Source: Desulfurobacteriaceae bacterium (GTDB taxonomy: Bacteria > Aquificota > Aquificia > Desulfurobacteriales > Desulfurobacteriaceae). Taken from it: a DNA stretch of 61,829 nucleotides. The stretch spans positions 67,074 to 128,902 of the forward strand of contig JAMOTD010000017.1 in NCBI GenBank assembly GCA_027068415.1, in the 5' to 3' direction. Both the position numbers and the translations under genes were made by a program. Under the pieces are notes generated by a model. The model had not been told where the DNA came from, searched no databases, and saw only the letters and a program-made list of their open reading frames with translations. Below, piece after piece: positions 9,301 to 42,717 of the stretch. Every line of letters starts with the position of its first letter. Within the stretch, counting starts at the first letter, position 1.

Positions 9301-12300
9301 CTAATCTGGGAGCTTGTCCATTCCTGAGACTTTAAGCTCAAGCTCTTTTACGCCAATCGGTACTACTTTTTTAATAGACTCAAGGAGAGCTCTGTTTTCT
9401 AAAATCCGCGCGGCGGTGGAGCTCCTTGTAAACTTGTAGTGCTTCATGAGGAGTGAGGTAATCACGTCAATATCCTGTCTGTTTAGCCTTCTGACTTCAA
9501 CGTAGTCCCTGTTTATCTTCTCCTCAATCTCCCCGTCAAGGACGAAGGCCGTTCCGCCTGTCATTCCGGCTCCGAAGTTCTTTCCTACTTTCCCCAAAAT
9601 TAGGACTATTCCCCTAACCATGTACTCGCAGGCGTGCTGGCCTGCACCTTCAACTACGGCAACCGCTCCGCTGTTCCTTACTGCAAATCTCTCTCCGACC
9701 ACTCCGCCGGCAAAGAGAGCTCCACCTGTGGCTCCGTAGAGAATTGTATTCCCGGCTATGACGTTTTCTGTGGGCTCTCCGCTGAACTCGTCGGGGAAGC
9801 GCAGGACTATCGTTCCTCCTCCGAGCCCTTTTGCGACGTAGTCGTTGGCCTCTCCTATTAGCTCAAGGGTAATTCCGGGGGGTATAAAGGCACCGAAGCT
9901 CTGGCCCGCAACTCCCCTAAACTTGAGATGGACGAGGTTTGTCGGCAGCCCTTCGTTTCCGAAGAGCTTAACTACGTAGTAGGCAAGGGGGACACCTATG
10001 CTCCTGTCGGTGTTCTTAATCTCGTACTCTTTTACGACCTTCTCTCCCCGTTTGATGTAGGGGAGAACCTCCTCAACGATTTTCTCGTTAAGGGGTGAGG
10101 AGATGGGATTGTAGGGGAGCTCCTTTCTCCTGAGCCTGTAAACAGGAATCTTTATAAGGTTTTCAAGGTTTAACTTCCTTGCCAGAGGGAATTTCTCTTT
10201 AAGTTCTTTGCTCTCTTTTAGTAAATCAACCCTTCCGATTATCTCATCTAAGCTCCTGTAGCCCATTCGGGCGAGGATGTGCCTGACGTCCTCGGCAACC
10301 AGCTTGAAGTAGTTGACCACCGTCTCAACGGCTCCCCTAAACTTCTTAATTCTCCTTTCATCCTGAGTTGCAATTCCGACCGGGCAGCGGTTTGTGTGGC
10401 AGTCCCTATCCATCACGCAACCTTCGGCAATCATGGCCGCCGTTCCGAAACCGAACTCTTCGGCACCCATCAGCGCCGAAATAACCACGTCCCTTCCGAC
10501 CTTAAAGCCTCCGTCAACCCTCAGGGCAACGCTTTCCCTGAGTCCGTTCTCAACCAGCTCCTTCTGGGTTTCCGAAAGGCCGATTTCCCACGGAAGCCCC
10601 GCCCCTTTAATTGAGGAGAGAGGGGAAGCTCCCGTTCCGCCGCAGGCTCCGCTGACCTGAACCGTGTCGGCCTTTGCCTTTGCAACTCCACAGGCTACCG
10701 TTCCGACGCCAACTTCGGAAACAAGCTTGACCGCTATCCTTGCCTTCGGGTTTGCAAGCTTTAGGTCGTAAATCAGTTGGGCTAAGTCCTCAATTGAGTA
10801 GATGTCGTGGTGGGGAGGCGGAGAAATGAGGGCAACTCCGGGAACTGAAAACCTCAGTGAGGCAATGTAGGGAGTGACCTTGTGGCCGGGGAGGTGGCCA
10901 CCCTCTCCGGGCTTTGCTCCTTGGGCAATTTTTATCTCAATCTCTTCGGCTGAAGCAAGGTAGGCGGGGGTTACCCCGAAGCGGCCTGAGGCTACCTGCT
11001 TTATTTTGCTGTTTTTAATTGTTCCGTATCTCTCGGGGTCTTCGCCCCCCTCTCCTGAGCAGCTTTTACTTCCTAAGATGTTCATTGCCTCGGCTATTAC
11101 TTCGTGGGCAACTTTGGAGAGAGCTCCGATTGACATTCCCGGAACCATAAGCCTCTTAACTATTGATTCAACGGGCTCAACCTCGCTTACCGGAATGGGC
11201 TCCCTGTCGGACTCAATCTTGAGTAAGTCCCTCAAGAATACCGGGTTTTCCTCAACCTCCTTAACTACCTCCCTAAACTCCTCGTAGCTCCCGCTTTTAG
11301 CGGCCTTAAAGATTCCCCTTACTACCTTAGGACTCCAGGAGTGGTAAATTCCGCCGGGCCTGAAGCGGAGCTCCCCGGTAAACTGGGGTTCTTTAACCTC
11401 TTCGGCCTGTTTTACTCTCTCCCTTACTACCTGCTCAATCTCCTCAAGGCCGATTCCGTCAACTGGTGTGGCAGTGTGGGGGAAGAACTCGTCAACTACT
11501 TCCTTCCCGATTCCCAAGATGTCAAAGAGGTGAGAGCGGTGGTAAGAGGAGAGGACGGAGATTCCCATCTTGGACATAATCTTTAGAATTCCCGCGTTTA
11601 TGGCCTCCTTGTAGTTGGCCTCAAGCTCTTTATAGGGTTTGTTTAGCTCAATCTCTTTGGCCTTCAGGTATTCAAAAACCAGGTAGGGGTAAACGCCGGA
11701 AGCTCCGAAGGCTATCAGGGCTGCGGTCTGGTGGGTGTCCCTAACTTCGGCCGTTTCGGCAATTATTGAAACCCTGTGTAGGAGCCCTTCCCTCTCCAAA
11801 AACGCACAGAGCCCCGAAACTGCAAGGAGTGAGGGAATCGGGTAGTCAACTCCCCTGTCTGAGAGGATTACTATCTCCGTATTCTCCTCAAGAATTGAGC
11901 GTTTAACGGCTTTGAAGAGCTCCTCTAACCCCTCTCTCAGTGAGTTTTTAAACTCCATCTTAAAGGTTTTGACATTAACGAAGGAGGTGTTTCTGATTTC
12001 CTCAATTTCTGAGGGGGTTAAAAGGGGGGAGTCTACCTCAATTCTTCGCCTTAACTTCCCTGAGAGCTCTAAGAAGTTAACCTTTGCTCCCAGCCTTAAC
12101 TTAAGGCTCATTACGGCCTTTTCCCTGATTGGGTCAATCGGGGGGTTGGTAACCTGAGCAAACCTCTGCTTAAAGTGTTTGAAGAGGAGGTAAGGCCTGT
12201 TTAAGAGGTTGGGAATCGGAGTGTCGTCCCCCATTGAGAAGACGGGCTCCTTGCCCATCTCTGCCATGTACTCAACTACCTCTGAGAGCTCTTCTTTAGA

Positions 12301-30892: not shown

Positions 30893-31287
30893 CTCTAAAT
30901 CCCGCTCAAATTTTCGGGCATTTCAACCATTTTTCTGAAATTGAATTACACCCGTTGAGCAAACAGTCGCAATCCCGCTCATTTTTTCGGGCCTTTCAAC
31001 GTAGTTTACATCATCAATCTTTAAAACTAAATAAATGTCGCAATCCCGCTCATTTTTTCGGGCCTTTCAACGAAGATGGCTGAAGTAAGAATCAAAAAAG
31101 TCTCAAGTCGCAATCCCGCTCATTTTTTCGGGCCTTTCAACAGGAGACGGGTGGACTTTAAGCTTGGACTGCACAAGTCGCAATCCCGCTCATTTTTTCG
31201 GGCCTTTCAACAAAAACTCTAAAGGAGGTGTGAAATGATGAACGAGAAAATTGTCGCAATCCCGCTCATTTTTTCGGGCCTTTCAAC
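30893..31287 (-). CRISPR. CRISPR array, five intact repeats plus one degenerate
   Basis: The 35-base repeat on the plus strand starts GTCGCAATCCCGCTC and ends TTTTTTCGGGCCTTTCAAC. Intact copies start at 30966, 31037, 31107, 31177 and 31253; spacers are 36, 35, 35 and 41 bases. A degenerate copy ends at 30927, with a 38-base spacer after it. Because the decayed repeat marks the trailer, the array should be read on the minus strand from a leader above 31287; the repeat then starts GTTGAAAGGCCCG and leaves the 8-base 5' handle ATTGCGAC on the crRNA. CCCG...CGGG can form a small stem. It lies 181 bases from the Lon-SAVED gene. Confidence 0.95.
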
Positions 31288-31468: not shown

Positions 31469-32860
31469 CTAAGGGCTGTCTACTTTCTCTAATTTCGGGA
31501 GCTCCAAAACCGGTAAGTAGTCTCTCTTCTCCTTAAAATACTGCCACACCTTTATTGGCCAGTAGTTATCCACCGCCATACCGAGGGCAAAGGCAATCGC
31601 AACCGGAACGCTCATTAAGAGGTTTATCTCTTCGTATTCTGAGGAGTTGTAGACTCTGTTCATCACCTCGTAGGCTTCGGCAACGGTCTCCTCCCACTCT
31701 GAAGGCTCTTTGGGGAGAGCTCCTTTGTTTTTGTGCTCGGCGTAGAAAAAGTCGGCATCAAGCTCCTCTGCCAGAGCTCTTGCCCTCTTTTCGGTTTCGT
31801 GTGAGGCTATTTGAAGCGCTACTACGGCTTTCTTTTTCCCTTTTAACTCCGATTTCATAGTGAACCTTGAGAGTGTGCGGATTCTTCTCTTTATCTTCCT
31901 TGGGGAGTCTATAAGGTCTATTAGCTTATAGTAGTTCTGGTTCTCAAAGTGATATATAGCTAAAGGAATCTTTCCCGCTCCTAAGGTTGCTCCTATTGCA
32001 AATGCCAGGGCCGATGGAGCTCTGATTCCCAAGTGGATTTTGGCCTTTATGGGAGAGTAGGTCAACTCTCTTACTTCTCTCAAGCTCTCTACTACTCTTT
32101 TAACGAACTCTTCCCATCTACCGGCAGGGAGCTTCGGAGGTAAAACTACGCTTAACCTTTCTCCGTCTAATCCTTTAACGGTTTTAACTCCCGCTGTCTC
32201 TTGTAGAAGTTTAAATGTTGCTTTTACCTCCTCGTAAGGTATAGTTGCTATTAAGAAGGGTAGCTCAATCTCTTTTTGGCTGAGGAGAGTGTGGAGCTCC
32301 TTTACATTCCCCTTCCAGATTAGGAACTTTCTGAGCTTTCTTGCAAGCTTCCTCTTCTCTTTAACTCTGTCGGCGATGAAGTCTCCTGAGCTTTCAAGTT
32401 TTCCGCTTATTGCCACTTTCTCGGGAATTCCTCCGGCAAGTAGGGCGTAAGCCAGAGGAGCCTGGAATGAGCTCCCGCTAAAGTTTGTTTCTTCAAAGAA
32501 GACCGCCACTTCGCTGTTTAAAAACTCTTTAACCGGCTCAAGGGAGGCGTCTTTTTTGTTTTTTACCTCTTTGGAGCTCTTAAAGGCTATTGCCTTCACC
32601 ATTTTATTTTTAGAGCCCACTACGGGGAACTCAAACTCAACGGGCTCTGATAGGAGCTCTGCACCGATAACTTTTTCTAAAAACTCCCTATCCCTCTCAA
32701 GAGCTCCCTTCACAATCCAGTAGAGGATTTCGGGGTTTCCCGAGTTTGCGGCATAAAGGAGCTCTTCCCTTTTAAGCTCAACTTTATCCTCTACCCAATC
32801 CTTTAAAGCTGCAAGTGCCGCTGTAATTTTTCCCTCTTCTATAAGGCTCTTTAGAACCAT
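31469..32860 (-). CDS. Lon-SAVED cyclic-oligoadenylate-activated protease (CalpL-like)
   Basis: A 463-residue protein. Residues about 85-185 look like a Lon protease domain: NFSGSSFQAPLAYALLAGG places a nucleophile Ser at 131 (Lon PSAG position), and FIADRVKEKRKLA places the dyad Lys at about 167. Residues 270-463 are a SAVED domain: HLGIRAPSALAFAIGATLG, LAIYHFENQNYYKLIDL, VVALQIASHETEKRARAL and MSVPVAIAFALGMAVDNYWP. This is the architecture of CalpL from Sulfurihydrogenibium, which binds cyclic tetra-adenylate made by Cas10 and then cuts CalpT. Its start overlaps the stop of the CalpT-like gene by one base. The dyad assignment is by alignment to Lon in my head. Confidence 0.83.
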   Translation of the reverse strand: MVLKSLIEEGKITAALAALKDWVEDKVELKREELLYAANSGNPEILYWIVKGALERDREFLEKVIGAELLSEPVEFEFPVVGSKNKMVKAIAFKSSKEVKNKKDASLEPVKEFLNSEVAVFFEETNFSGSSFQAPLAYALLAGGIPEKVAISGKLESSGDFIADRVKEKRKLARKLRKFLIWKGNVKELHTLLSQKEIELPFLIATIPYEEVKATFKLLQETAGVKTVKGLDGERLSVVLPPKLPAGRWEEFVKRVVESLREVRELTYSPIKAKIHLGIRAPSALAFAIGATLGAGKIPLAIYHFENQNYYKLIDLIDSPRKIKRRIRTLSRFTMKSELKGKKKAVVALQIASHETEKRARALAEELDADFFYAEHKNKGALPKEPSEWEETVAEAYEVMNRVYNSSEYEEINLLMSVPVAIAFALGMAVDNYWPIKVWQYFKEKRDYLPVLELPKLEKVDSP

Positions 32861-33681
32861 TACTCCTTTACCTCAACTTTTAGTCTTGAGAGAGCTCCGA
32901 AAGCTTTTTTGCTGATTCCCCTTACAGTTAAAACTTTGGGAAGGACTCCCCAGAAAATAGGAACTTCTCCCTCTGGGGTTTCTATTTTTACCTCACCCTC
33001 TTTTCCCCTTAAGTTCTCGTCAATTACAATCTCTACGGTTTCCGGAGTGAAGACTGCAACTGCTCCTTTTCCTTCTATTACTCTTCTATCGGAAGCAGCG
33101 GCAACTTCAAGGGCTGCAGTTTCTTCAAGGAGGCTCCTGATAAATTTCGGGATTTTAACCTCTTGGGCAATACTCTTTGAGCTTTTCTCGGCTTCGTCAA
33201 TTGACGATAGGAGCTCTTCAACTAAAAACTTGTAGCGTTTGTACTCAAAGTCTTTGAATTTTTCGTGGATTACATCATCATATCCCCTTCCTCTTTTCTC
33301 TTTAGGCAAGGGAGCTTCTCCCTTTAATGTTTTCTTTAAAATTCTTAAATCTTCATCTTTTAGCTTTCCTATGAGCTCTGCTTCCTTTAAAAGCTTTTTA
33401 GGGGTGCTTGCGGCAAGGTCTGTCTGGACTATCCAGATATCGGAAAATGGATGAGGGAGCTCAACGATAAGGTCGTGTCTGGTGGCTAAAGGCCAGCAGA
33501 AGGAAAGAGGAGCCACTTCAACGAAGCTTCCCTCTTTATTGATTACTGCAACAAAAAGGGGCTCGTCGGCCGGCAGCCTGTAAACGCCCCCTTCAATAAC
33601 TTCCCCGCAAGAGGCGGTAGGAGTTTTCTCGTACATCTCAACCATTTTTATGTAATCCTCCAGGATATCCTCAAGCCTCAT
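32860..33681 (-). CDS. CalpT-like cleavable anti-sigma protein
   Basis: A 273-residue protein. ATG 33681 is chosen for the CAGGAGGAAAA site before it; the frame is open 14 codons further but inside the sigma gene. The N-terminal half has a beta-rich MazF-like feel (GEVIEGGVYRLPADEPLFVA, VEVAPLSFCWPLATRHDLIV). The middle is a charged linker (KGEAPLPKEKRGRGYDDV), and the C-terminal half has another alpha/beta domain (IEGKGAVAVFTPETVEIVID). In the characterised system CalpT holds the sigma factor until CalpL cleaves it. Identity rests on size, fold feel and gene order between the sigma and protease genes. Confidence 0.72.
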   Translation of the reverse strand: MRLEDILEDYIKMVEMYEKTPTASCGEVIEGGVYRLPADEPLFVAVINKEGSFVEVAPLSFCWPLATRHDLIVELPHPFSDIWIVQTDLAASTPKKLLKEAELIGKLKDEDLRILKKTLKGEAPLPKEKRGRGYDDVIHEKFKDFEYKRYKFLVEELLSSIDEAEKSSKSIAQEVKIPKFIRSLLEETAALEVAAASDRRVIEGKGAVAVFTPETVEIVIDENLRGKEGEVKIETPEGEVPIFWGVLPKVLTVRGISKKAFGALSRLKVEVKE

Positions 33682-33701
33682 TTTTCCTCCTGACAACTTC
33701 T

Positions 33702-34316
33702 TTAACGGAATCTCTTCTGACATTCTGACAGTAGAAGCTGACCGAAGATTCCGGCCTCTTCCCCGTCAAAGTCAAACTCCTTTAAGAGCTTTTCTACCTT
33801 CGGCCGAAGTCTGCTCCACGCTTTATCCCTTGCATTTCTTGATTTATCCTTTAAGTACAGGTTCTCTTCCTTTTTGTATAGGGCCGAGTGGACTCTGTAG
33901 CAGAGGATTTCAAACTCTTTCTCCGTTAGCTCTTTCTTTAGGAGCTCCACTGCTTCCCGGGCGTTTAAGAGGGCAATTACATTGAATGGGCTCGCTTCTA
34001 AGCGCTCTTCAAGCGGTTTTTCTTCCTCTTCCCGTTTCTCGGAAATACTGACCGTTTCAAAGCTCTTTCTCCTAAGATACCTGTCTATAAGTCTGTTCCT
34101 TACGGATATAATGAGGAATGAGAGGTTAAGCTCTTTGCGGCTGCAGAACTCCTTTCGCTTTTCAAAGAGAATTAGGGCTATCTCCGAGACCAAATCATCA
34201 AACTCCAGTTTGGTGCTGAACTCCTTTTGAATTATTCCGGCAATCTTTCGGGAGAGCTCTTCAATCTCCTCTCCCTTCCCTTTACAGAGTTTCTCCTTAA
34301 TCCTCTCCGCACTCAT
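33702..34316 (-). CDS. ECF-like sigma factor (CalpS-like)
   Basis: A 204-residue sigma factor. Region 2 is visible as KLEFDDLVSEIALILFEKRK and LSFLIISVRNRLIDRYLRR (the -10-binding and melting helix). Region 4 is near ELTEKEFEILCYRVHSALYK and KSRNARDKAWSRLRPKVEKL, where the helix-turn-helix should lie. ATG 34316 is preferred to the TTG directly before it. It overlaps the upstream unknown gene by 20 bases and is followed by the CalpT-like gene. Freed CalpS is thought to redirect RNA polymerase to stress or defence genes; its target promoters are unknown. Confidence 0.8.
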   Translation of the reverse strand: MSAERIKEKLCKGKGEEIEELSRKIAGIIQKEFSTKLEFDDLVSEIALILFEKRKEFCSRKELNLSFLIISVRNRLIDRYLRRKSFETVSISEKREEEEKPLEERLEASPFNVIALLNAREAVELLKKELTEKEFEILCYRVHSALYKKEENLYLKDKSRNARDKAWSRLRPKVEKLLKEFDFDGEEAGIFGQLLLSECQKRFR

Positions 34317-34722
34317 CAAGCAACCTCTTCTTTATTTCTTCTTTACACGTTCCGCAGGGTAGGCTTGCAAGCCTATCTTTCAGAAACCTCACTGGTATTG
34401 TAAATAGGCAATTACCGCTGTTTAAGTCAACGAAAACAAAGGAGGTTATTTTCTTAACCTCTTTATAACGTCCGACCGTACACTCTCTTCCTATCTCTAC
34501 CTTAGGCTGTCTCGGGAAGAGCTTTTTGGTTGATAAGAAAACAACTTTAGCTACCTCAAGCTTTTCACCTTCAGCTTCCAAAAACTCAAGTACTATTCCC
34601 GGTCGGCGCTCTTTTTTTAAGTCGGCTTTGATTTCTTTTGAGAGCTCCCTTGCCCTTAGAAAGTACCACAGGCAGGGAGTTTTTCTCTCTTTTAGACAAA
34701 GGGCTTCAACAAGTTGCTCCAA
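34297..34722 (-). CDS. Unknown 141-residue protein heading the Calp operon
   Basis: The first gene of the minus-strand operon, starting TTG with GGAGGGGAAAA upstream. It begins MEQLVEALCLKERKTPCLWY, has a beta-rich middle (GIVLEFLEAEGEKLEVAKVV, then CTVGRYKEVKKITSFVFVDL) and ends with a short Cys motif PCGTCKEEIKKRLLDEC. The six cysteines could bind a metal. I recognise no family. The 20-base overlap with the sigma gene implies translational coupling and a shared role. Confidence 0.75.
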   Translation of the reverse strand: MEQLVEALCLKERKTPCLWYFLRARELSKEIKADLKKERRPGIVLEFLEAEGEKLEVAKVVFLSTKKLFPRQPKVEIGRECTVGRYKEVKKITSFVFVDLNSGNCLFTIPVRFLKDRLASLPCGTCKEEIKKRLLDECGED

Positions 34723-34806: not shown

Positions 34807-37383
34807 ATGGAAAGAGAGAAACTCCACCTGGCTACCCTTACAGCCCTCTTTCACGATATAGGTAAGTTCTACCAGAGGACTCAGGATAACCCCAGGAAAA
34901 GAAAGCACTACCAGTTTTCTGCCGACTTTTTAAAGGAAAAAAGGGAAAAGATAAAGAGGCTGTTTAACTTAACCGACGAAGAGTTTGAGGCCCTAAAGAA
35001 GGCGGTAGAGAGACACCATGGAAGGTTAACTCCCTCTGAGCCTCTACCTTTTATAGTTCAATCTGCCGACTGGCTTAGCTCGGGTCTTGACAGGGTTTCA
35101 ATAGACGAAGAGGCCTTTGTTGAAGGAAAAAACCCGGAAGACGACAAAGGGATTTACAAGCTCTTAGTCTCTCCCTTTGCCCTGATTAAGATAAAGCAGA
35201 AGGATAAGGCCTACCACCCCTGCATCACCCACCTTAAAGAGGAGAGAACTTGGGGATACAAGTTTAAGGAGCTCACCTCCGAAAATCTCTTTCCCGTAAA
35301 GGAGGGGGAGTACCCAATTGAGGAGAGGAAAAGAGACTACAAGGAGCTCTGGAAGAAGTTTTTAAGAGAGTTTGATGAGCTCCCTGAAAGCGGAGACTTT
35401 AACTTTAGGTTTGAGACCCTCAGAGCTCTCTTTCTCAAGTACATGTGGTGCGTTCCATCCTACACCTACGCAAAGAAGAGAATTGCGCTACCCGACGTCT
35501 CCCTTGCCCACCACCTTTTAACTTCTGCTGCAATTGCAACTGCTCTGTGGAAGTACGAAGAAAGTAAAGGTTTTGACCCTAAAAGCCTAAAGAGTAAGGA
35601 TGTGGAGAAGTTTATCTTTCTCAGCGTTGACTTTTCGGGAATTCAGAGCTTCATCTTCAGCCCTCCGAAGGATACAAAAAAGTGGGCGGCGAAAATTCTC
35701 AGGGCCCGCTCTTTCATTGTCTCCTTGGCACTGGAAACGGTTGTAAACAGGCTTTTGGAGGCGTTTGGAGTAAACGCCTCAAGTCTCTTAATGAACGCCG
35801 GAGGAAAGGCTTGGCTTCTTCTTCCAAACCTGTCTGATGCTGAGGATAGGATAGAAGAGGTTAGAAAAGAGGTCGTTGAGGCTCTTTTAAGCAGCGAAAA
35901 GAACTTCTTTGGGGAGGTGAAGTTAAAGATTGCCTACTTGGAGCTCCCTCCCAGACGGCTCCACCTGAAAAACTTTGGAAAGATAGTTGAGGAGCTTACC
36001 CAGAAGGAGGCCGAGGCTAAGTTTAGGCTCTTTAAGCCTGAGGACTTTTCCAAATTGATAATAAGTGGCTACTGTGGAAGGGTTTCTGAGGGGGACGAGA
36101 GCAAAAAGCTCTGCCCGGTTTGCGGAAAGGCTCCGGCAAGTGAGGAGCTCTACGGTGAAAAGGTCTGCTCCCTCTGTAAGTACCTGATTGAACTAGGGGA
36201 GAAACTGCCAAAGAGCGACTACGCAAAGGTTTCATTTAAAAGTTCCTCCTACTTTCCCCTTCCGGAGGTGGAGCTTTTTAAGTGTGATTTAGAAGAAAAG
36301 CTGAAGGAGCTAAAGGAGGGCGAAAAGATTTACTCCTTTACGACAAAAACTTCCCGTCCTCTACCCCTTAAACCCCTTGAAAACGCCGTTCCTATTTACG
36401 ACAAGGAAAAGGAGAGGGACGAGCTTAAGGAGCTGGTAGAAAAGTGCTACGAAGGGGAAAAGGCGCAGGAGTTCGTCGGGAAGCCCAAAAACTTCTGCCA
36501 CATAGGCCTCTATGCTCTCAAAAAGTCTGAAGGCTCCTTTTGTGGAAGACCCTTTCTTGGGGTTTTGAAAGCCGACGTTGACAACTTGGGGTACATCTTC
36601 GCCAAGGGCTTTGTAAGGGCACCTGAAAGCGACGGAGACGAGGAGTGTAGGGGCTCAATCCACTCTCTCTCAAGGCTTCTGCAACTTAGCTGGTTCTTAG
36701 ACTTTTTCTTCTCCGAGGTTGTAAGGGAGAAGATTGTGAAAGAGAAGTTTGAGAACATTTACAGCGTTTTTTCCGGGGGCGACGACCTCTTTTTCATAGG
36801 GCCCTGGGAGGATGTTCTTAAATTTGAGGGAGCTCTGAGAGAGGAGTTTAAAGAGTTCACCTGCAGGAACGATAGCTTCACCCTTTCTGTAGGAATAGCC
36901 GTCGTTAAGCCCAACCTTCCAATCTACGCCTTTGCAGAAGAAGCCGAGGAGGCCCTTGAGCGCTCAAAGAGGGAAGGGAAAAACTCCACCACACTCTTTG
37001 ACAGGAGAGTTGACTACAGGGAATTCACCCTTAAAGAGCTCCTAGAGGTTGCCGACGAAATAGTTAAGCGTGCCGGAGACTGTGCAGACGCAAGGAAGAT
37101 TTCCAACTCCTTCCTCTACAAGCTTTTAACACTGTCAGAAATGGCGAATAACGAAGGTAAGAGCGTTAAAAATCTTCTATGGAGGGCCTACCTCAGGTAC
37201 TTAACCTCAAGAAACTTTAAGAAAGAGGATGCTGAGGAGTTCTTTAAGGAGTTTGAGAAGTGGATTAGGAAGTACTCAGAGAACATTTCAGAGGAAGAAA
37301 AGAAGGGTAAAGACAACCTCTTTTACATACCACTTGCAATAGCAATTTACAGGAGGAGGAGATATGAGAGCTCAGCACAGTAA
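34807..37383 (+). CDS. csm1: Type III-A CRISPR Cas10/Csm1
   Basis: An 858-residue Cas10. ATG 34807 follows GGAGGGAGA; the longer open frame upstream is not used. The N-terminal HD nuclease motif is LFHDIGKF (His16, Asp17) with a later ERHHGRL. A zinc finger starts at Cys436 (LCPVCGKAP ... VCSLCKYL). The palm domain has the intact catalytic GGDD at residues 657-660 (FSGGDDLFF), so it should make cyclic oligoadenylates when target RNA is bound. Both DNase and cyclase sites look intact. It leads the csm1-5 operon. Confidence 0.95.
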   Translation: MEREKLHLATLTALFHDIGKFYQRTQDNPRKRKHYQFSADFLKEKREKIKRLFNLTDEEFEALKKAVERHHGRLTPSEPLPFIVQSADWLSSGLDRVSIDEEAFVEGKNPEDDKGIYKLLVSPFALIKIKQKDKAYHPCITHLKEERTWGYKFKELTSENLFPVKEGEYPIEERKRDYKELWKKFLREFDELPESGDFNFRFETLRALFLKYMWCVPSYTYAKKRIALPDVSLAHHLLTSAAIATALWKYEESKGFDPKSLKSKDVEKFIFLSVDFSGIQSFIFSPPKDTKKWAAKILRARSFIVSLALETVVNRLLEAFGVNASSLLMNAGGKAWLLLPNLSDAEDRIEEVRKEVVEALLSSEKNFFGEVKLKIAYLELPPRRLHLKNFGKIVEELTQKEAEAKFRLFKPEDFSKLIISGYCGRVSEGDESKKLCPVCGKAPASEELYGEKVCSLCKYLIELGEKLPKSDYAKVSFKSSSYFPLPEVELFKCDLEEKLKELKEGEKIYSFTTKTSRPLPLKPLENAVPIYDKEKERDELKELVEKCYEGEKAQEFVGKPKNFCHIGLYALKKSEGSFCGRPFLGVLKADVDNLGYIFAKGFVRAPESDGDEECRGSIHSLSRLLQLSWFLDFFFSEVVREKIVKEKFENIYSVFSGGDDLFFIGPWEDVLKFEGALREEFKEFTCRNDSFTLSVGIAVVKPNLPIYAFAEEAEEALERSKREGKNSTTLFDRRVDYREFTLKELLEVADEIVKRAGDCADARKISNSFLYKLLTLSEMANNEGKSVKNLLWRAYLRYLTSRNFKKEDAEEFFKEFEKWIRKYSENISEEEKKGKDNLFYIPLAIAIYRRRRYESSAQ

Positions 37384-37876
37384 CCCTTTAACGGTTAAAC
37401 CGGCAGAGATTGTTGAAAAGTTCTTTTCGGGGAAGCGGGAGGAGCTCCTGAAAGTTCTGGTTGGCGTTGACGGAGAGAGCCTCCTTGAGAAGTTTGCAAA
37501 GAGTTTAGGAGGGAAAAGGGAGAGAGAGAAGCTCTCTTTTACTAAAGTTAGAAAGTACTACGAGCAGTTCCTAAACATCTATGAGGAGGCCCTTGGCAGA
37601 GTTCTTGAGGGTAAAGCCTTAAAACAGGATTCGCTTCCTGAGGAAATTCTTGTGAAACTCTATCTCCTTAAGAGCCACGTGGTTTACGACCAGGCAAGGG
37701 AAGGAGGGAAAGTTAGAGAGGATAAGTTTAAGAACCCAAAAGCACAAAAGTTTGAGAACTTTAAGGAGTTTGTTAACTCACTAATTTTAAAAATCAACAC
37801 TTACGACGAGCTTGAAAAGGCAAAGCGCCTTTTTGAAGCCTTCGTAGGCTACGCTAAGCTCTACCTTGGAAGCTAA
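37364..37876 (+). CDS. csm2: Type III-A CRISPR small subunit Csm2
   Basis: A 170-residue all-helical protein. The C-terminal stretch LLKSHVVYDQAREGGKVRED and RLFEAFVGYAKLYLGS is typical of Csm2, the small subunit that lines the crRNA-target duplex along the Csm3 backbone. The N-terminal 60 residues are longer and less conserved. It overlaps csm1 by 20 bases and has AGGAGGAG before its ATG. Confidence 0.9.
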   Translation: MRAQHSNPLTVKPAEIVEKFFSGKREELLKVLVGVDGESLLEKFAKSLGGKREREKLSFTKVRKYYEQFLNIYEEALGRVLEGKALKQDSLPEEILVKLYLLKSHVVYDQAREGGKVREDKFKNPKAQKFENFKEFVNSLILKINTYDELEKAKRLFEAFVGYAKLYLGS

Positions 37877-37893: not shown

Positions 37894-38661
37894 ATGAAGA
37901 GACTGAAGAAGATTGTGGAGATAACTGGAACTTTAGAGCTCTTAACAGGCCTTCACGTTGGAGCCGGAAAAGACGAGGTAAAGATTGGAGGGGTTGATAG
38001 CCCGGTTATTAAAAACCCCCTTACCGGAGAACCCTACATTCCCGGCTCAAGCCTTAAGGGAAAGATGAGAATGCTCCTTGAGCTTGCGACAGGCTCCTAC
38101 CAGTTTGACGGCAAAGATGCCGGCGACGTTCTAACCTATTCCTACTACAAAGCACACAAGAACGATAAGGAGAGACTCCCAGACCCAGAGGCGGCGAAGA
38201 ACATCTTAAAGCTTTTTGGAACTTCCGGCTCAGACTATAAAGAAATAGACGAAGAAGCAAAGGAGCTTGCAATTACCAGGCTCTCCTTTTACGACTTGTT
38301 TCTGACCAAGGAAAGTAGGGAGAAGTACAACGAAATTCTTGAAAAGCGCCTTGAAGAAAAGACGGAGGTGAAGATAAACAGGATTACGGGAACCGCTTAC
38401 GGAGGAGCTCTCAACACCAAAGAGAGGATCCCTGCCGGTATGGAGTTTGGATTCAGGCTGATTTTAAAAATCTTTGATTGCGATGATGAAAAAGCTCTCC
38501 TTGAGATGGTAAAGAGGGGCTTAAAGCTCCTGGAGTTTGACTCCTTAGGGGGAAGCGGTTCAAGGGGCTACGGAAAAGTAAAAGTAAGAGAACTCTCTTT
38601 CAGAGAGATTAACCCTTTAGAACTTGGAAAGGAGAAGAGCGGTGAGGAAGTTTCAGGCTAA
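37894..38661 (+). CDS. csm3: Type III-A CRISPR backbone RAMP Csm3
   Basis: A 255-residue RAMP protein. The catalytic Asp that cuts target RNA every six bases is Asp35 in KIGGVDSPVIKNPLTGEPYI. The glycine-rich loops are YIPGSSLKGKMR and LGGSGSRGYGKVKV near the end. Several copies form the filament that holds the crRNA. Preceded by AAGGAGGAG. It ends 20 bases inside the start of csm4. Confidence 0.95.
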   Translation: MKRLKKIVEITGTLELLTGLHVGAGKDEVKIGGVDSPVIKNPLTGEPYIPGSSLKGKMRMLLELATGSYQFDGKDAGDVLTYSYYKAHKNDKERLPDPEAAKNILKLFGTSGSDYKEIDEEAKELAITRLSFYDLFLTKESREKYNEILEKRLEEKTEVKINRITGTAYGGALNTKERIPAGMEFGFRLILKIFDCDDEKALLEMVKRGLKLLEFDSLGGSGSRGYGKVKVRELSFREINPLELGKEKSGEEVSG

Positions 38662-39553
38662 GCTCAGAATAATTACGCCCCTTGCAACTACCTTTCAGTC
38701 AGACACGCTCTTTGGGGAGTTCTGTTGGCACTTTAGCTTCCTTTACGGTTCTGACAGGCTGAAGGAGCTCCTGAGTAAGGGGGCGTTTGTGGTCTTTTCA
38801 GACATATTTCCCGAAGGCCGGCTCCCTATGCCCAAGTTCCCCGTAAAGGGAGGGTTTGATTCAATAGAGAGTTATAAGAAGTTTAAGGAGCTGAAGAAGA
38901 AAAGGTTTGTAGGAGTGGAGACCTTTAAAGAGGCTCTTGAGAAGAGTTCTACTTTTGAAGAATTCTGTAAGGAACTCTACTCTTTAGCAGAGCAGGAAAA
39001 GGATGAGAGCTTTTTCAAGCAGAGCTCCAGAGTTAGAGTAGCGATAAACCGCCTTACCGGAACGGCCTACGAGGGGAAGCTCTTTCAGGTTGAGGAACTC
39101 TTTCCGAAAGTAAAGTTTTTCACCCTCTACGGCCTCTTTGAGCCGGAGCTAATAAGTGCCGACGAAGTTAAAGCCACCCTTGAGTTTTTAGGTTTAAGCG
39201 GTTTTGGGGCCAAAAAGAGCTCCGGAGCAGGCAAATTTGAGATAGTTGAGTTTAAGGAGGAATGGGAGCTCCCGGAAAGAGGAGAGAACTGGTTTGTCTC
39301 TCTCTCAACGGGCCTTCCCGAAGGTGGAGAGGTTGAAGAGTTCTACGCCGACTTCTTTACAAAGTTCCCGAAACACGGAAGGGAAGTCGCCCGGCCGGAA
39401 ATCTTTAAGGAGCCTTTGATTCTCTCAAGGTCCGGCTCAACCTTTAAGGCAAGAGAGAAGAAGGAGTTCTACGGCTCCTTGGTTGAGATATCTGCGCCGG
39501 CCCTTAAAGGCCACAAACACTCAAGAGTCGTAGTTCCTCTATTTGTGGGGTAG
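38642..39553 (+). CDS. csm4: Type III-A CRISPR RAMP Csm4
   Basis: A 303-residue Csm4, which caps the 5' handle end of the crRNA and contacts Cas10. The GTG at 38642 is chosen: AAGGAG lies 7 bases upstream. It starts VRKFQAKLRIITPLATTF, has FGEFCWHFSFLYG, a RAMP loop with VAINRLTGTAYEGKLFQ, and the G-loop LSGFGAKKSSGAGKFEIV. It ends with HKHSRVVVPLFVG. csm5 follows 4 bases later. Confidence 0.92.
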   Translation: MRKFQAKLRIITPLATTFQSDTLFGEFCWHFSFLYGSDRLKELLSKGAFVVFSDIFPEGRLPMPKFPVKGGFDSIESYKKFKELKKKRFVGVETFKEALEKSSTFEEFCKELYSLAEQEKDESFFKQSSRVRVAINRLTGTAYEGKLFQVEELFPKVKFFTLYGLFEPELISADEVKATLEFLGLSGFGAKKSSGAGKFEIVEFKEEWELPERGENWFVSLSTGLPEGGEVEEFYADFFTKFPKHGREVARPEIFKEPLILSRSGSTFKAREKKEFYGSLVEISAPALKGHKHSRVVVPLFVG

Positions 39554-39557
39554 GGAG

Positions 39558-40766
39558 ATGAGAAGTGAACCCGTTTCAATTAAAGTTCGCCTGAAAGTTA
39601 AAACGCCAACGGCAATTGGCACCGGAGAGAGCTATACTCTCTTCAGCTACGCTGTAAAGGAGAGAGAGCTTTTAGTAATCAACTTTAAAAAGCTGATAGA
39701 GAAGTTAAAGTCCACAGGGAGGTTGGGCGAGTTTAAGGAGCTCCTTAAAAGGTTTACGCCCTTTGACGTCGTCAAACTTCAAAACTTCTACTCTCGGGTA
39801 GTAGGTCGGGACGAGGCAATAGCAGTTTTAAAGCTTGAGCCAGAAGTTGCAGAGTACTTTAAGGGGAAGTTTGCGAGGTTAGCCGAGCTTTTAAGGGGAA
39901 GGAACTTCAAAGAGTATTTTGAGGAGCTTGGGGCCGCTGAAGTAAGAGAGGCTTTTAAGAATCCGCTAACCGGGAAAGCTTACATTCCCGGTTCAAGCCT
40001 TAAGGGGGCCATAAGAACCTCGCTACTCAACTACTTGATTAAGAAGGGCAAGATAGACAAGGAAAAATTTATAGGGGAACTCCAAAGGGCTTTTAATCAG
40101 GTTGGCCTTCACTGGCCGGGAGTTTACTCCAGGGAAGAGCTCCCAACAAACTTCGGAGAGCTTGAGAAAGCGCTGAAGAGGATTTTTAACGAGATAGATT
40201 CCCACCTCCTCTGTGATTTCCTGACGGCAGTTGATTCCTCTGACTTCGGAAGGGACTTAATGAGGTTTGTAAAAGTTTCCGATTTCTCTCCGACAGGGGA
40301 AGTTTCCACTTCAGTCGGAAGGCTCAGAAGAGTAAGCAGAAAGGGTAAGGAAAATGCCTTTGGTTTTGTTGAGTTCGTTGAACCGGGAGCTCTCTTTGAG
40401 GGAACCATTACTTTCTACCCTGAATTTATTGAGAAGTACGCAGAGTGTCCCTTAAAGGTTAACCCCCAGCTGGTGGTTAAGGCCCTTAGAAGTGAGTACT
40501 CAAAGGTTCTCCGTTGGGAAAGGGATTTTCTGGGGAAATCTCCTCTGCCCTTTACTAAAGAGGAGGTAAAGCTCTACCAGAGGGAGAACTCTCCGCTTGC
40601 CCCGATTAAACTCGGTTTTGGAGCCGGAGCTCTCTCTAAAACCTTCTCAGACGCTCCCGAGCTTAGGGTAATAGGAAACAGGCACACGGGAATCAGGCCG
40701 GAACCTACCGAAATTTCGGTAATGAGAGGCAGGCCGATGGGCTGGTGTCTTCTGGAGGTCTGCTGA
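39558..40766 (+). CDS. csm5: Type III-A CRISPR RAMP Csm5
   Basis: A 402-residue Csm5, which caps the 3' end of the crRNA and helps its trimming. ATG 39558 follows GGTAGGGAG; the open frame begins 5 codons earlier without a site. It has an N-terminal KTPTAIGTGES loop, the RAMP block NPLTGKAYIPGSSLKGAIRT near residues 135-154 and a helical middle. The C-terminus reads IRPEPTEISVMRGRPMGW. Its TGA overlaps the ATG of the PLD-HerA gene by one base (TGATG). Confidence 0.92.
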   Translation: MRSEPVSIKVRLKVKTPTAIGTGESYTLFSYAVKERELLVINFKKLIEKLKSTGRLGEFKELLKRFTPFDVVKLQNFYSRVVGRDEAIAVLKLEPEVAEYFKGKFARLAELLRGRNFKEYFEELGAAEVREAFKNPLTGKAYIPGSSLKGAIRTSLLNYLIKKGKIDKEKFIGELQRAFNQVGLHWPGVYSREELPTNFGELEKALKRIFNEIDSHLLCDFLTAVDSSDFGRDLMRFVKVSDFSPTGEVSTSVGRLRRVSRKGKENAFGFVEFVEPGALFEGTITFYPEFIEKYAECPLKVNPQLVVKALRSEYSKVLRWERDFLGKSPLPFTKEEVKLYQRENSPLAPIKLGFGAGALSKTFSDAPELRVIGNRHTGIRPEPTEISVMRGRPMGWCLLEVC

Positions 40767-42688
40767 TGGAGATTTTAACCAGCGACCAAATTTACGGTAA
40801 GATAGAGGAGCTCGTAAAAAGGGCTGAAGTTTCTATCTGGCTCTCTTCAGCTTGGCTTAAAAGTAGCGTTCTTGAGAGGCTTTTTGCTCAGGTTCCGGAA
40901 AATACTAAAGACTTAAAAGTTGTTTTAAGGGCTTCAGAGCTTCAGGATTTGCTCATTACCGACGAGAAGGTTTTTGAGATTTTAAGAAAGTGGGAAATCT
41001 ACCTCCATCCCCGCCTTCACGCGAAGTTTATCCTTGTAGACGGCAGGTACGCCGTTGTCGGCTCTGCCAACTTTACCTATTCGGGGCTTTCAGAGTTCTC
41101 AAAGGGGAACGTTGAGGCGGCCGTTTACTACGATGAAACCGATGACCCGGAAGAGGTTGAGAAGCTTAAAAACTATTTCATAGATATAGTAGAGAGTAAA
41201 GAGACTTTCAGGGTTGACGGCTCTCTGGTCGGCTTTGCAATGAATCCGGTAAAGTCCCGCTCCTTTGAGTTTGTTGCCCTTGAGGAGGTTAAAGAGCAGG
41301 ATTATGTAGAAATCAGAGACGGTGATAGAAAACTAATAGGGAGAGTTCTGGAGCTCTACTCCTACGATATGGACTTTTTTGCAAATCCCTTCACCGCCGG
41401 GGAGTCTCCCGTTTTCGGCTCTTTGGATACTTTTAAGCTCCTCTTTGCTAAAGGTGAGAATTCCGACTGGAAAAAGGCTGCTGTTTGGGCCTACCTTAAC
41501 GACAACGGAGCTAAACTTAAGCTTGCGGTTGCAAGTGTTGTAGGTGAATTAAAAGAGGATAAACTTGAGACCTCTCTCTCTCCCGTTTCGGTGGGCTCGC
41601 CCGTTTTTAAACTTTCTGAGGATGATATTTCTTCCCTTTTGAGGAAAAACTTCTCGGGCGCAGATATGGTTAGACCGGTGAAAGTTGGGAAGTTGGTGGG
41701 GAGCTCCGCCGAGGCCTTTATTGATGCCTCGGAGGTTCTTTCTAAACACCTGTTGGTTTTAGGAACCACCGGCTCGGGTAAGAGCTACTTTACGAAACTC
41801 TTCCTCAAGAGGCTGTTGGAGGCCGACCCTGAGGTGAAAGTTTTTATCCTTGACCCCCACGGTGAGTACAGGGAAGGGCTTGGTTCTTCCGCTATTGAGG
41901 AGCTCACCGTTGAAGACCTGCTTCTGCCGGTTTTTCCAGAAGAGGTTGAGGAGCTAATAAAGCAGGAGGGAGGGTCCTCCCTGATTTCCGGGAACTCAAA
42001 GGAGGCTTCTAAGAACAGGTCTTTAATCTCAAAGGCCGTTAGGCCTTCCCTCGGCCTTACCGCTTTTAGGGAGAAGAGCTTAAGGGAATTGATAAGGGAG
42101 TTTTCAGATAGAAACAACGAGAAGGAGGCTCTCCTCTCTTCCCTTTCTGATGTATATGACGGTCAGCCGAACCTTGTCAGAGCTCTTGAGAGAGCTCTCA
42201 ACTCGGCGAGCAGAGTTGTGATTTTTAACTTTAAAAGGGTTAGTGAGCCCTCTACGAGGGTTAACGTTGCCGGCCTTGTGATGAGGGAGCTCTTTGAGAG
42301 GGCCAAGAGGGGAGATATCGGAAAGACCTTCCTCGTTCTTGAGGAGGCCCACAGCTTTGCCCCCGAAAGGGGATTCGGAGATACCTCTGCCGGAAGGGAT
42401 AACTTGGCCTTGACTATGGCCAGGAAAATAGCCTCCGAGGGGAGGAAGTTTAACTTGGGGCTCGGCGTTATAACGCAGAGGCCGGCTCAGGTAAGTAAGT
42501 ACGTTCTCTCCCAGACCAACACTCAAGTAATGTTCCGAACAATTAACTCTTCGGACCTTGACGTTATCTCCTCTTTTGTTGAGTATGCAGGTGAGGACGT
42601 TGTCTCCCTTCTTCCGTCCCTTCAAACAGGAATGGGAGTTGTCTGCGGAATAGGAACTCCCTTCCCCCTGCTAATTAACGTTGAGTAA
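40766..42688 (+). CDS. PLD nuclease-HerA ATPase fusion, coupled to csm5
   Basis: A 640-residue fusion. Residues 1-145 are a phospholipase D-type nuclease domain with one HKD motif: HPRLHAKFILVDGRYAVVGS gives His85, Lys87, Asp92, Ser100 and Asn102. Residues about 160-300 form a HAS-barrel-like domain. The rest is a HerA/FtsK-type motor: Walker A GTTGSGKS at 333-340, ILDPHGEY, Walker B FLVLEEAHSF at 522-531, a sensor-like ITQRPAQVSKYVLSQTNTQV and an arginine-rich stretch. HerA motors pump DNA in repair (with NurA) or defence. No NurA is here; the PLD domain would be the built-in nuclease. One-base overlap with csm5 suggests co-translation. Not a standard Csm component. Confidence 0.88.
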   Translation: MEILTSDQIYGKIEELVKRAEVSIWLSSAWLKSSVLERLFAQVPENTKDLKVVLRASELQDLLITDEKVFEILRKWEIYLHPRLHAKFILVDGRYAVVGSANFTYSGLSEFSKGNVEAAVYYDETDDPEEVEKLKNYFIDIVESKETFRVDGSLVGFAMNPVKSRSFEFVALEEVKEQDYVEIRDGDRKLIGRVLELYSYDMDFFANPFTAGESPVFGSLDTFKLLFAKGENSDWKKAAVWAYLNDNGAKLKLAVASVVGELKEDKLETSLSPVSVGSPVFKLSEDDISSLLRKNFSGADMVRPVKVGKLVGSSAEAFIDASEVLSKHLLVLGTTGSGKSYFTKLFLKRLLEADPEVKVFILDPHGEYREGLGSSAIEELTVEDLLLPVFPEEVEELIKQEGGSSLISGNSKEASKNRSLISKAVRPSLGLTAFREKSLRELIREFSDRNNEKEALLSSLSDVYDGQPNLVRALERALNSASRVVIFNFKRVSEPSTRVNVAGLVMRELFERAKRGDIGKTFLVLEEAHSFAPERGFGDTSAGRDNLALTMARKIASEGRKFNLGLGVITQRPAQVSKYVLSQTNTQVMFRTINSSDLDVISSFVEYAGEDVVSLLPSLQTGMGVVCGIGTPFPLLINVE

Positions 42689-42691
42689 TTA

Positions 42692-42717
42692 AAAGCCCCG
42701 CCTTCCTGCGGGGCTTT
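42692..42717. terminator. Bidirectional terminator between the csm operon and ccsA
   Basis: AAAGCCCCGC (42692-42701) and GCGGGGCTTT (42708-42717) pair perfectly around CTTCCT. T and A flanks make it usable in both directions. It lies between two convergent genes. Confidence 0.88.

Follow-up and report, generated by a model that had tools for sequence, protein, structure and literature searches.

HerA-type DNA motors are known to act in concert with nucleases. In HerA-NurA, the HerA ring is capped by the nuclease NurA, and translocation and resection are coupled (PMC9960219). A HerA ring with a nuclease can also be an anti-phage dsDNA nuclease, as DUF4297-HerA has this function and needs both of its parts for it (PMC11291478). 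In SIR2-HerA (Nezha; PDB 8wod and 8j4u), a HerA motor is combined with a separate SIR2 effector. HerA genes near CRISPR loci have been reported as well: a CRISPR-associated nurA-csm6-herA cluster occurs in Pyrobaculum (PMC3396285), and HerA and NurA are listed as putative CRISPR auxiliaries (PMC10910872). The accessible parts of these two sources deal with separate genes and mention neither a coupling to csm5 nor a PLD fusion. Neither HerA near CRISPR nor HerA combined with a nuclease is therefore new in itself. For a single chain joining an HKD domain to HerA, and for the two-clade distribution reported below, we found no description in the open-access papers searched.

The gene considered here, PLD-HerA, is the final gene of a type III-A csm operon in the window, i.e., the whole analyzed stretch of 61,829 nucleotides. 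The host is a heat-loving Aquificota bacterium of the family Desulfurobacteriaceae. The operon runs on one strand in the order cas10-csm2-csm3-csm4-csm5-PLD-HerA, no gap exceeding 17 nt, and comprises, together with its surroundings, the following features:

30966..31287, + strand: CRISPR array of five perfect 35-nt repeats (its repeat recurs elsewhere in the genome)
31469..34319, − strand: divergent calpL (31469-32860), calpT (32860-33723) and calpS (33702-34319) (SAVED/CRISPR-Lon 7e-74, Unk_02, sigma-70 ECF)
34807..37383, + strand: cas10/csm1 with HD (FHDIGK) and palm GGDD motifs (TIGR02578, 1e-176; motifs in the translation)
37364..37876, + strand: csm2 (profile scans)
37894..38661, + strand: csm3 (TIGR02582, 5e-60)
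38624..39553, + strand: csm4 from its first possible start, the exact start being unsure (TIGR01903, 6e-33)
39543..40766, + strand: csm5 from its first possible start, with an ATG at 39558 (TIGR01899, 2e-23)
40764..40768, + strand: TGATG, overlap of the csm5 stop and the PLD-HerA start (sequence)
40766..42688, + strand: PLD-HerA fusion gene, 640 aa (ORF, translation, Pfam PLDc_2/HAS-barrel/DUF87, AF2 model with pLDDT 86)
42692..42717, + strand: intrinsic terminator closing the csm operon (10-bp stem with 7 G-C pairs, the best match of the region)

The csm5 stop codon TGA (40764-40766) and the PLD-HerA start codon ATG (40766-40768) share their A, and an SD-like GGAGG lies upstream of the latter at 40754-40758. 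As start and SD are clear, an artefact or a misplaced start was ruled out. The sequence-only reading of this stretch had described the TGATG overlap, a terminator behind the gene and a single HKD nuclease joined to a HerA pump in one chain; the first two are confirmed at the coordinates listed, and the third by the Pfam matches and the one HKD motif given below. Translational coupling of PLD-HerA is, however, non-specific for csm, since within the family its start also overlaps other upstream genes: an unrelated 99-aa gene by 4 nt in neighbourhood L034, and cas6 by 20 nt in L032.

Because Cas10 keeps both its HD and its GGDD motif and the CalpL/T/S effector set is complete (for the Calp pathway, see PMC11417357 and PMC11229360), the csm locus appears, by its gene content, to lack neither a DNase nor a signalling output. 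The calp genes are also found at other Desulfurobacteriaceae csm loci. Two substitution scenarios were ruled out. PLD-HerA does not replace a lost Cas10 nuclease, as the HD motif is intact, nor does it replace Cas6, whose gene position it occupies in comparison with relatives, as the genome carries two Cas6 genes in trans. An additional degenerate repeat of the CRISPR array ends at 30927.

Within PLD-HerA, the following elements were located:

40766..41215, + strand: N-terminal PLD domain (single HKD, putative nuclease), residues 1-150 (Pfam PLDc_2 15-138; phmmer)
41018..41071, + strand: HKD catalytic motif HxKx4Dx6GSxN, H85-N102 (conserved in 51 sequences)
41252..41491, + strand: HAS barrel, residues 163-242, the face of HerA proteins used for docking (Pfam 3.6e-5)
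41678..42685, + strand: HerA/FtsK-type motor domain, residues 305-640 (DUF87 3e-27; structural match)
41762..41785, + strand: Walker A GTTGSGKS, residues 333-340 (G333, T335, G336, G338 and K339 invariant in 51 sequences)
42329..42352, + strand: Walker B FLVLEEAH, residues 522-529 (E526 and E527 invariant in 51 sequences)
42443..42484, + strand: Arg-finger/sensor stretch R560-P573 (R560, K561, Q571, R572 and P573 invariant in 51 sequences)

Pfam matches PLDc_2 at residues 15-138 (5e-10), with the PLDc motif at 83-105, a HAS barrel at 163-242 and DUF87/HerA from residue 305 onwards (3e-27). The HAS-barrel score is slightly below the cut-off; the structural alignment to HerA covers this barrel. 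The N-terminal part carries the HxKx4Dx6GSxN signature of the PLD superfamily exactly once (H85xK87x4D92x6GSxN102), and its PLD identity is drawn from Pfam and this motif. A phmmer search with residues 1-150 retrieved a PDB phospholipase (1e-4) and, weakly, the exonucleases PLD4 and PLD3; that the domain acts as a nuclease rather than a lipase is deduced from its fusion to a DNA motor. The remainder shows the full set of HerA-branch features, i.e., a HAS barrel, a RecA-like motor, Walker A and B and an Arg finger. In an alignment of 51 PLD-HerA proteins, which come from three families of Aquificota plus two non-Aquificota genomes and have identities down to 30%, the HKD residues H85, K87, D92, G99, S100 and N102 are invariant. 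As both active sites are invariant in these 51 sequences, both catalytic halves are under selection, which is evidence, at the level of conservation, for a nuclease and a motor activity.

The scores of PLD-HerA against the NCBIfam HerA anti-phage equivalogs NF042943 and NF042944 (119.7 and 67.6 bits) stay below the curated cut-offs of 800 and 850. The same holds for the classical HerA equivalogs NF040819 and NF040937 (103.5 and 87.8 bits against 970 and 800), cut-offs so strict that the genome's own classical HerA likewise falls below them. Among the PADLOC models, HerA 'Type III coevolved' fits worse than other HerA models. The PLD domain matches the models of DISARM DrmC, DpdK and NucT weakly and far below their cut-offs; for DrmC, it reaches 33 bits against 133, and no DISARM partner genes occur among the neighbours scanned. 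Scans with Pfam, NCBIfam and PADLOC detected no CARF or SAVED sensor of the kind that a type III cyclic-oligoadenylate effector would carry.

An AF2 model built from the 51-sequence alignment (pLDDT 86, pTM 0.79) supersedes an earlier, poor one from 11 close sequences (pLDDT 62). In this model, residues 151-640, the part that was compared, adopt a HerA fold. The best structural match is the HerA of the anti-phage ATPase-nuclease complex HerA-DUF4297 (PDB 8xau, 8xav), which likewise unites a HerA ring with a nuclease (8xau_E: Z 32.5, rmsd 3.2 over 408 residues including the HAS barrel). HerA-NurA (PDB 9x1m, 4d2i and 7f6d) has the same layout of HAS barrel and motor, with Z 32.1 for archaeal HerA 4d2i and 32.0 for the HerA of 9x1m. 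All these alignments begin at about residue 151. Because residues 151-640 align with complete HerA structures, the model depicts PLD-HerA as an entire HerA with some 150 extra N-terminal residues bearing the PLD domain. This arrangement differs from the described systems: HerA-DUF4297 relies on a separate nuclease of the PD-(D/E)xK family and HerA-NurA on a separate NurA, while PLD-HerA has its own HKD domain in one chain in a genome that keeps classical HerA and NurA. Unlike SIR2-HerA, it has no SIR2.

A PLD-HerA profile matched 78 of the 136 Aquificota genomes at ≤1e-40, most of them across both domains. Among some 255 genomes sampled outside the phylum, two relatives turned up, a full-length one in G230 (48% identity) and a distant one in G164, and viral contigs yielded no PLD-HerA fusion, merely three distant HerA-type motors. 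Within the Desulfurobacteriaceae, 12 of 22 genomes carry PLD-HerA. The window was assigned to this family by its named relatives in the genome collection, namely Desulfurobacterium, Thermovibrio and Desulfurobacteriaceae MAGs. The PLD-HerA tree splits into two clades with a support of 100/100 (midpoint root only): a patchy, mobile clade I, which includes the copy in the window, and a settled clade II. Neighbours of clade I are type III R-M genes (directly downstream in L113, also in L038, and a broken copy in L172), AbiEii-type toxins (L111, L116, L040 and its close counterpart L041) and a HerA/McrB-like/trypsin operon (L034). Other members lie in csm operons (two genomes), on the Aquifex plasmid ece1 or, in the case of L168 from a non-Aquificota genome, in a stretch rich in IS elements. 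For L037, L112, L114 and L117, the neighbouring genes examined include no known defence gene, a point against a defensive role. Among the 64 immediate neighbours of clade I, at least 8 match PADLOC models at E ≤ 1e-10, versus 1 of 102 for clade II (p = 0.002); the former count is a lower bound from a family list and includes csm5 and cas6 of G018. On balance, we consider it probable, though by no large margin, that the clade I PLD-HerA of the window is an autonomous, defensive DNA pump with a built-in nuclease that joined the csm operon. Among the three roles offered by the sequence-only reading, a separate defence unit of this kind fits the data best. Defence-gene neighbours may also just reflect shared genomic islands.

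Clade II keeps other company. In eight to nine genomes of Hydrogenothermaceae (L138-L146), PLD-HerA adjoins obg and lies within a few genes of nurA (confirmed by PF09376, 2e-22), and in Aquificaceae its neighbours are of a housekeeping type and conserved per genus. Classical HerA is present in all 22 Desulfurobacteriaceae genomes and nearly all Hydrogenothermaceae, but in no Aquificaceae genome (60 genomes matched, none of them Aquificaceae), and NurA is present in most Aquificaceae. By these profile matches, PLD-HerA seems to be the sole HerA in Aquificaceae. A hand-compiled table of Aquificaceae genomes at least 90% complete contains 31 with both NurA and PLD-HerA, five with NurA only, one with PLD-HerA only and five with neither (p = 0.0016, uncorrected for kinship and with divergent or split copies possibly miscounted). 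Together with the modelled motor fold, which resembles the HerA of HerA-NurA, both the obg and nurA context and this co-occurrence speak for PLD-HerA as a DNA-repair enzyme, a HerA paralogue that would resect ends like HerA-NurA and whose location behind csm5 would be an insertion accident or a matter of shared expression. We regard this as unlikely, though deserving of serious attention, as the genome of the window already has classical HerA and NurA, the gene belongs to a patchy clade missing from 10 of the 22 family genomes, and copies are broken in G020, G100 and ece1, unlike a core repair gene. The housekeeping neighbours and NurA co-occurrence of clade II are also a counterpoint to the defence reading, as the family may originally have served in DNA repair.

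A dedicated type III accessory, recruited by Csm or acting after it, would destroy target DNA and might be controlled by the Calp sigma factor. PLD-HerA is indeed the final gene of a csm operon with an overlapping start in two genera, the second case (G018) having the order csm5-cas6-PLD-HerA, where PLD-HerA overlaps cas6 by 20 nt; the identity of this cas6 was confirmed by a profile scan. Eight Desulfurobacteriaceae genomes carry both PLD-HerA and III-A cas10, and linkage in two of them has a probability of about 1e-5 under random placement, or of 0.003-0.03 if PLD-HerA and csm both sit in defence islands. The association, recurring as it does in a second genus, is thus probably not pure coincidence. 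Furthermore, both linked modules group in the csm gene trees, where the window joins G018 and G017 (support 94/93, 98/98 and 80/83). Nonetheless, the consistent csm or cmr linkage of a type III accessory family is not seen: among the Cas10/RAMP matches listed, PLD-HerA lies in a csm operon in two of the 52 neighbourhoods read (the window and 51 others). In L115, a CRISPR array lies one gene away. Other csm operons of the family with a readable 3' end run from csm5 to cas6 and other genes without PLD-HerA. Among the 22 family genomes, III-A Cas10 occurs in 12, no co-occurrence with PLD-HerA beyond chance was found (8 with both, p = 0.39) and four carry PLD-HerA without III-A cas10.

The history of the locus can be read in two ways. 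In G020, of the same genus, both chromosomal flanks are conserved (which we take by eye to be a bile-acid-symporter-type transporter gene and cytochrome c biogenesis genes), with PLD-HerA between them some 50 bp from the transporter gene and the array, calp and csm genes absent. In G019, the transporter gene is present with neither PLD-HerA nor csm adjoining. Given these two genomes, either PLD-HerA predates the csm cassette at this site, or loss of the cassette was followed by decay of PLD-HerA. The G020 copy is decayed by 1-nt and 10-nt deletions that shift the frame, and this decay accompanying the absence of csm is a point in favour of an accessory role. In the PLD-HerA tree, however, the csm-linked copies are not sisters: those of the window and G020 form a pair (100/100), and that of G018 is placed with copies lacking csm linkage (95/95). 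As this disagrees with the csm trees, the linkage appears to have arisen at least twice or to have been lost several times. Taking in also the missing CARF/SAVED sensor and the HD motif that Cas10 retains, an accessory role is rather doubtful. Degradation of target DNA on behalf of Csm, as the sequence-only reading had envisaged, finds no support where homologues lie off csm operons in 50 of 52 neighbourhoods, each gene occurs without the other and Cas10 keeps its own HD and GGDD motifs. That reading had also named homologues consistently away from CRISPR loci as evidence against the csm link, and this is largely the situation encountered.

A composite scenario, in which a single-chain HerA-nuclease operates throughout the Aquificota, its settled form having replaced classical HerA as the partner of NurA in Aquificaceae and its mobile sister having been recruited by type III systems in two genera as a co-expressed DNA-destroying arm, is in our view quite improbable. 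Least credible by far is a spacer-acquisition helper replacing cas1/cas2, suggested by their absence, which holds at the locus but not genome-wide, and by archaeal HerA-NurA pairs near CRISPR arrays proposed for adaptation (PMC3396285): two cas1-cas2 loci and cas6 are present elsewhere in the genome, contigs C9, C11, C16 and C18 carry the repeat of the array either unchanged or with one or two mismatches (on C11 near a cas1-cas2 pair), and PLD-HerA mostly has no array nearby.

For the preferred reading, an autonomous defensive pump in clade I, a mechanism can be proposed. PLD-HerA would form a HerA-type ring translocase, expected to be a hexamer, in which every subunit bears an HKD nuclease of its own at the N-terminal end. 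As this nuclease immediately precedes the HAS barrel, it is expected on the face to which separate nucleases bind in other HerA rings. Single-HKD nucleases function as dimers, two chains forming one active site; HKD dimers on a hexamer could give three active sites at the channel mouth. ATP hydrolysis would then feed duplex DNA to these sites, resulting in translocation-coupled cutting or resection. The defence-gene company of clade I suggests invader DNA as its target, and the context of clade II suggests DNA ends in repair. The clade I form in the window probably attacks invading DNA by itself, and through its operon position would be made together with the Csm complex. Because the operon position recurs in two genera, a benefit of co-expression is plausible also for a machine that acts by itself.

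In repair and anti-phage systems, HerA motors are known to work with separate nuclease or SIR2 partners, and a one-chain HKD-HerA would be a compact version thereof. The family is widespread in Aquificota and usually located far from CRISPR, which also holds a caution for CRISPR biology: a tail gene with translational coupling is not necessarily a Cas accessory. With one clade repair-like and the other defence-like, PLD-HerA lends itself to a natural comparison of two versions of one enzyme. If PLD-HerA is truly the sole HerA in Aquificaceae, DNA end processing in that family would need rethinking.

Two features on the (-) strand adjoin the csm operon of the window:

Window 31469-34319, (-) strand: full CalpL-CalpT-CalpS set, divergent from the csm operon.
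Window 34297-34722, (-) strand: 141-aa protein, between calpS and cas10.

The set comprises a SAVED-Lon protease (CalpL), a putative anti-sigma factor (CalpT) and an ECF sigma factor (CalpS), and most csm loci of the Desulfurobacteriaceae are adjoined by such a set, as in the window. The 141-aa protein gave no family matches; its homologues (23-31% identity) occupy the equivalent position in six other Calp loci of the family and share invariant residues (Cys and RP/FL). It may represent a fourth Calp component.

The same genome carries further CRISPR modules outside the window:

Contigs C9, C18, C22 and C11 (loci L157-L160): further CRISPR modules.

One is a second III-A-like set, in which Cas10 is short and does not extend over the model's HD part. 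Another is type I-like and includes cas1/cas2; csm3, csm5 and cas6 make up a partial set, and a further cas1/cas2 lies separately. Near-identical repeats occur at several places in this genome.

PLD-HerA, the nuclease-translocase fusion that ends the csm operon, also occurs in other settings:

L033 (same-genus genome), 9555-11483: broken PLD-HerA copy.
L034, 392-9988, (-) strand: compact operon behind one PLD-HerA.

The broken copy, with two deletions that both shift the frame, lies at the same chromosomal site as the window copy, and CRISPR genes are absent there. The L034 operon encodes a second protein of the HerA type together with an AAA_5 (McrB-like) protein, a protein resembling trypsin and one with weak similarity to Cas4, and looks like an undescribed defence operon. 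In Hydrogenothermaceae (L138-L146), PLD-HerA, obg, one to three genes and nurA form a conserved cluster, which suggests a housekeeping role for PLD-HerA of the core clade.
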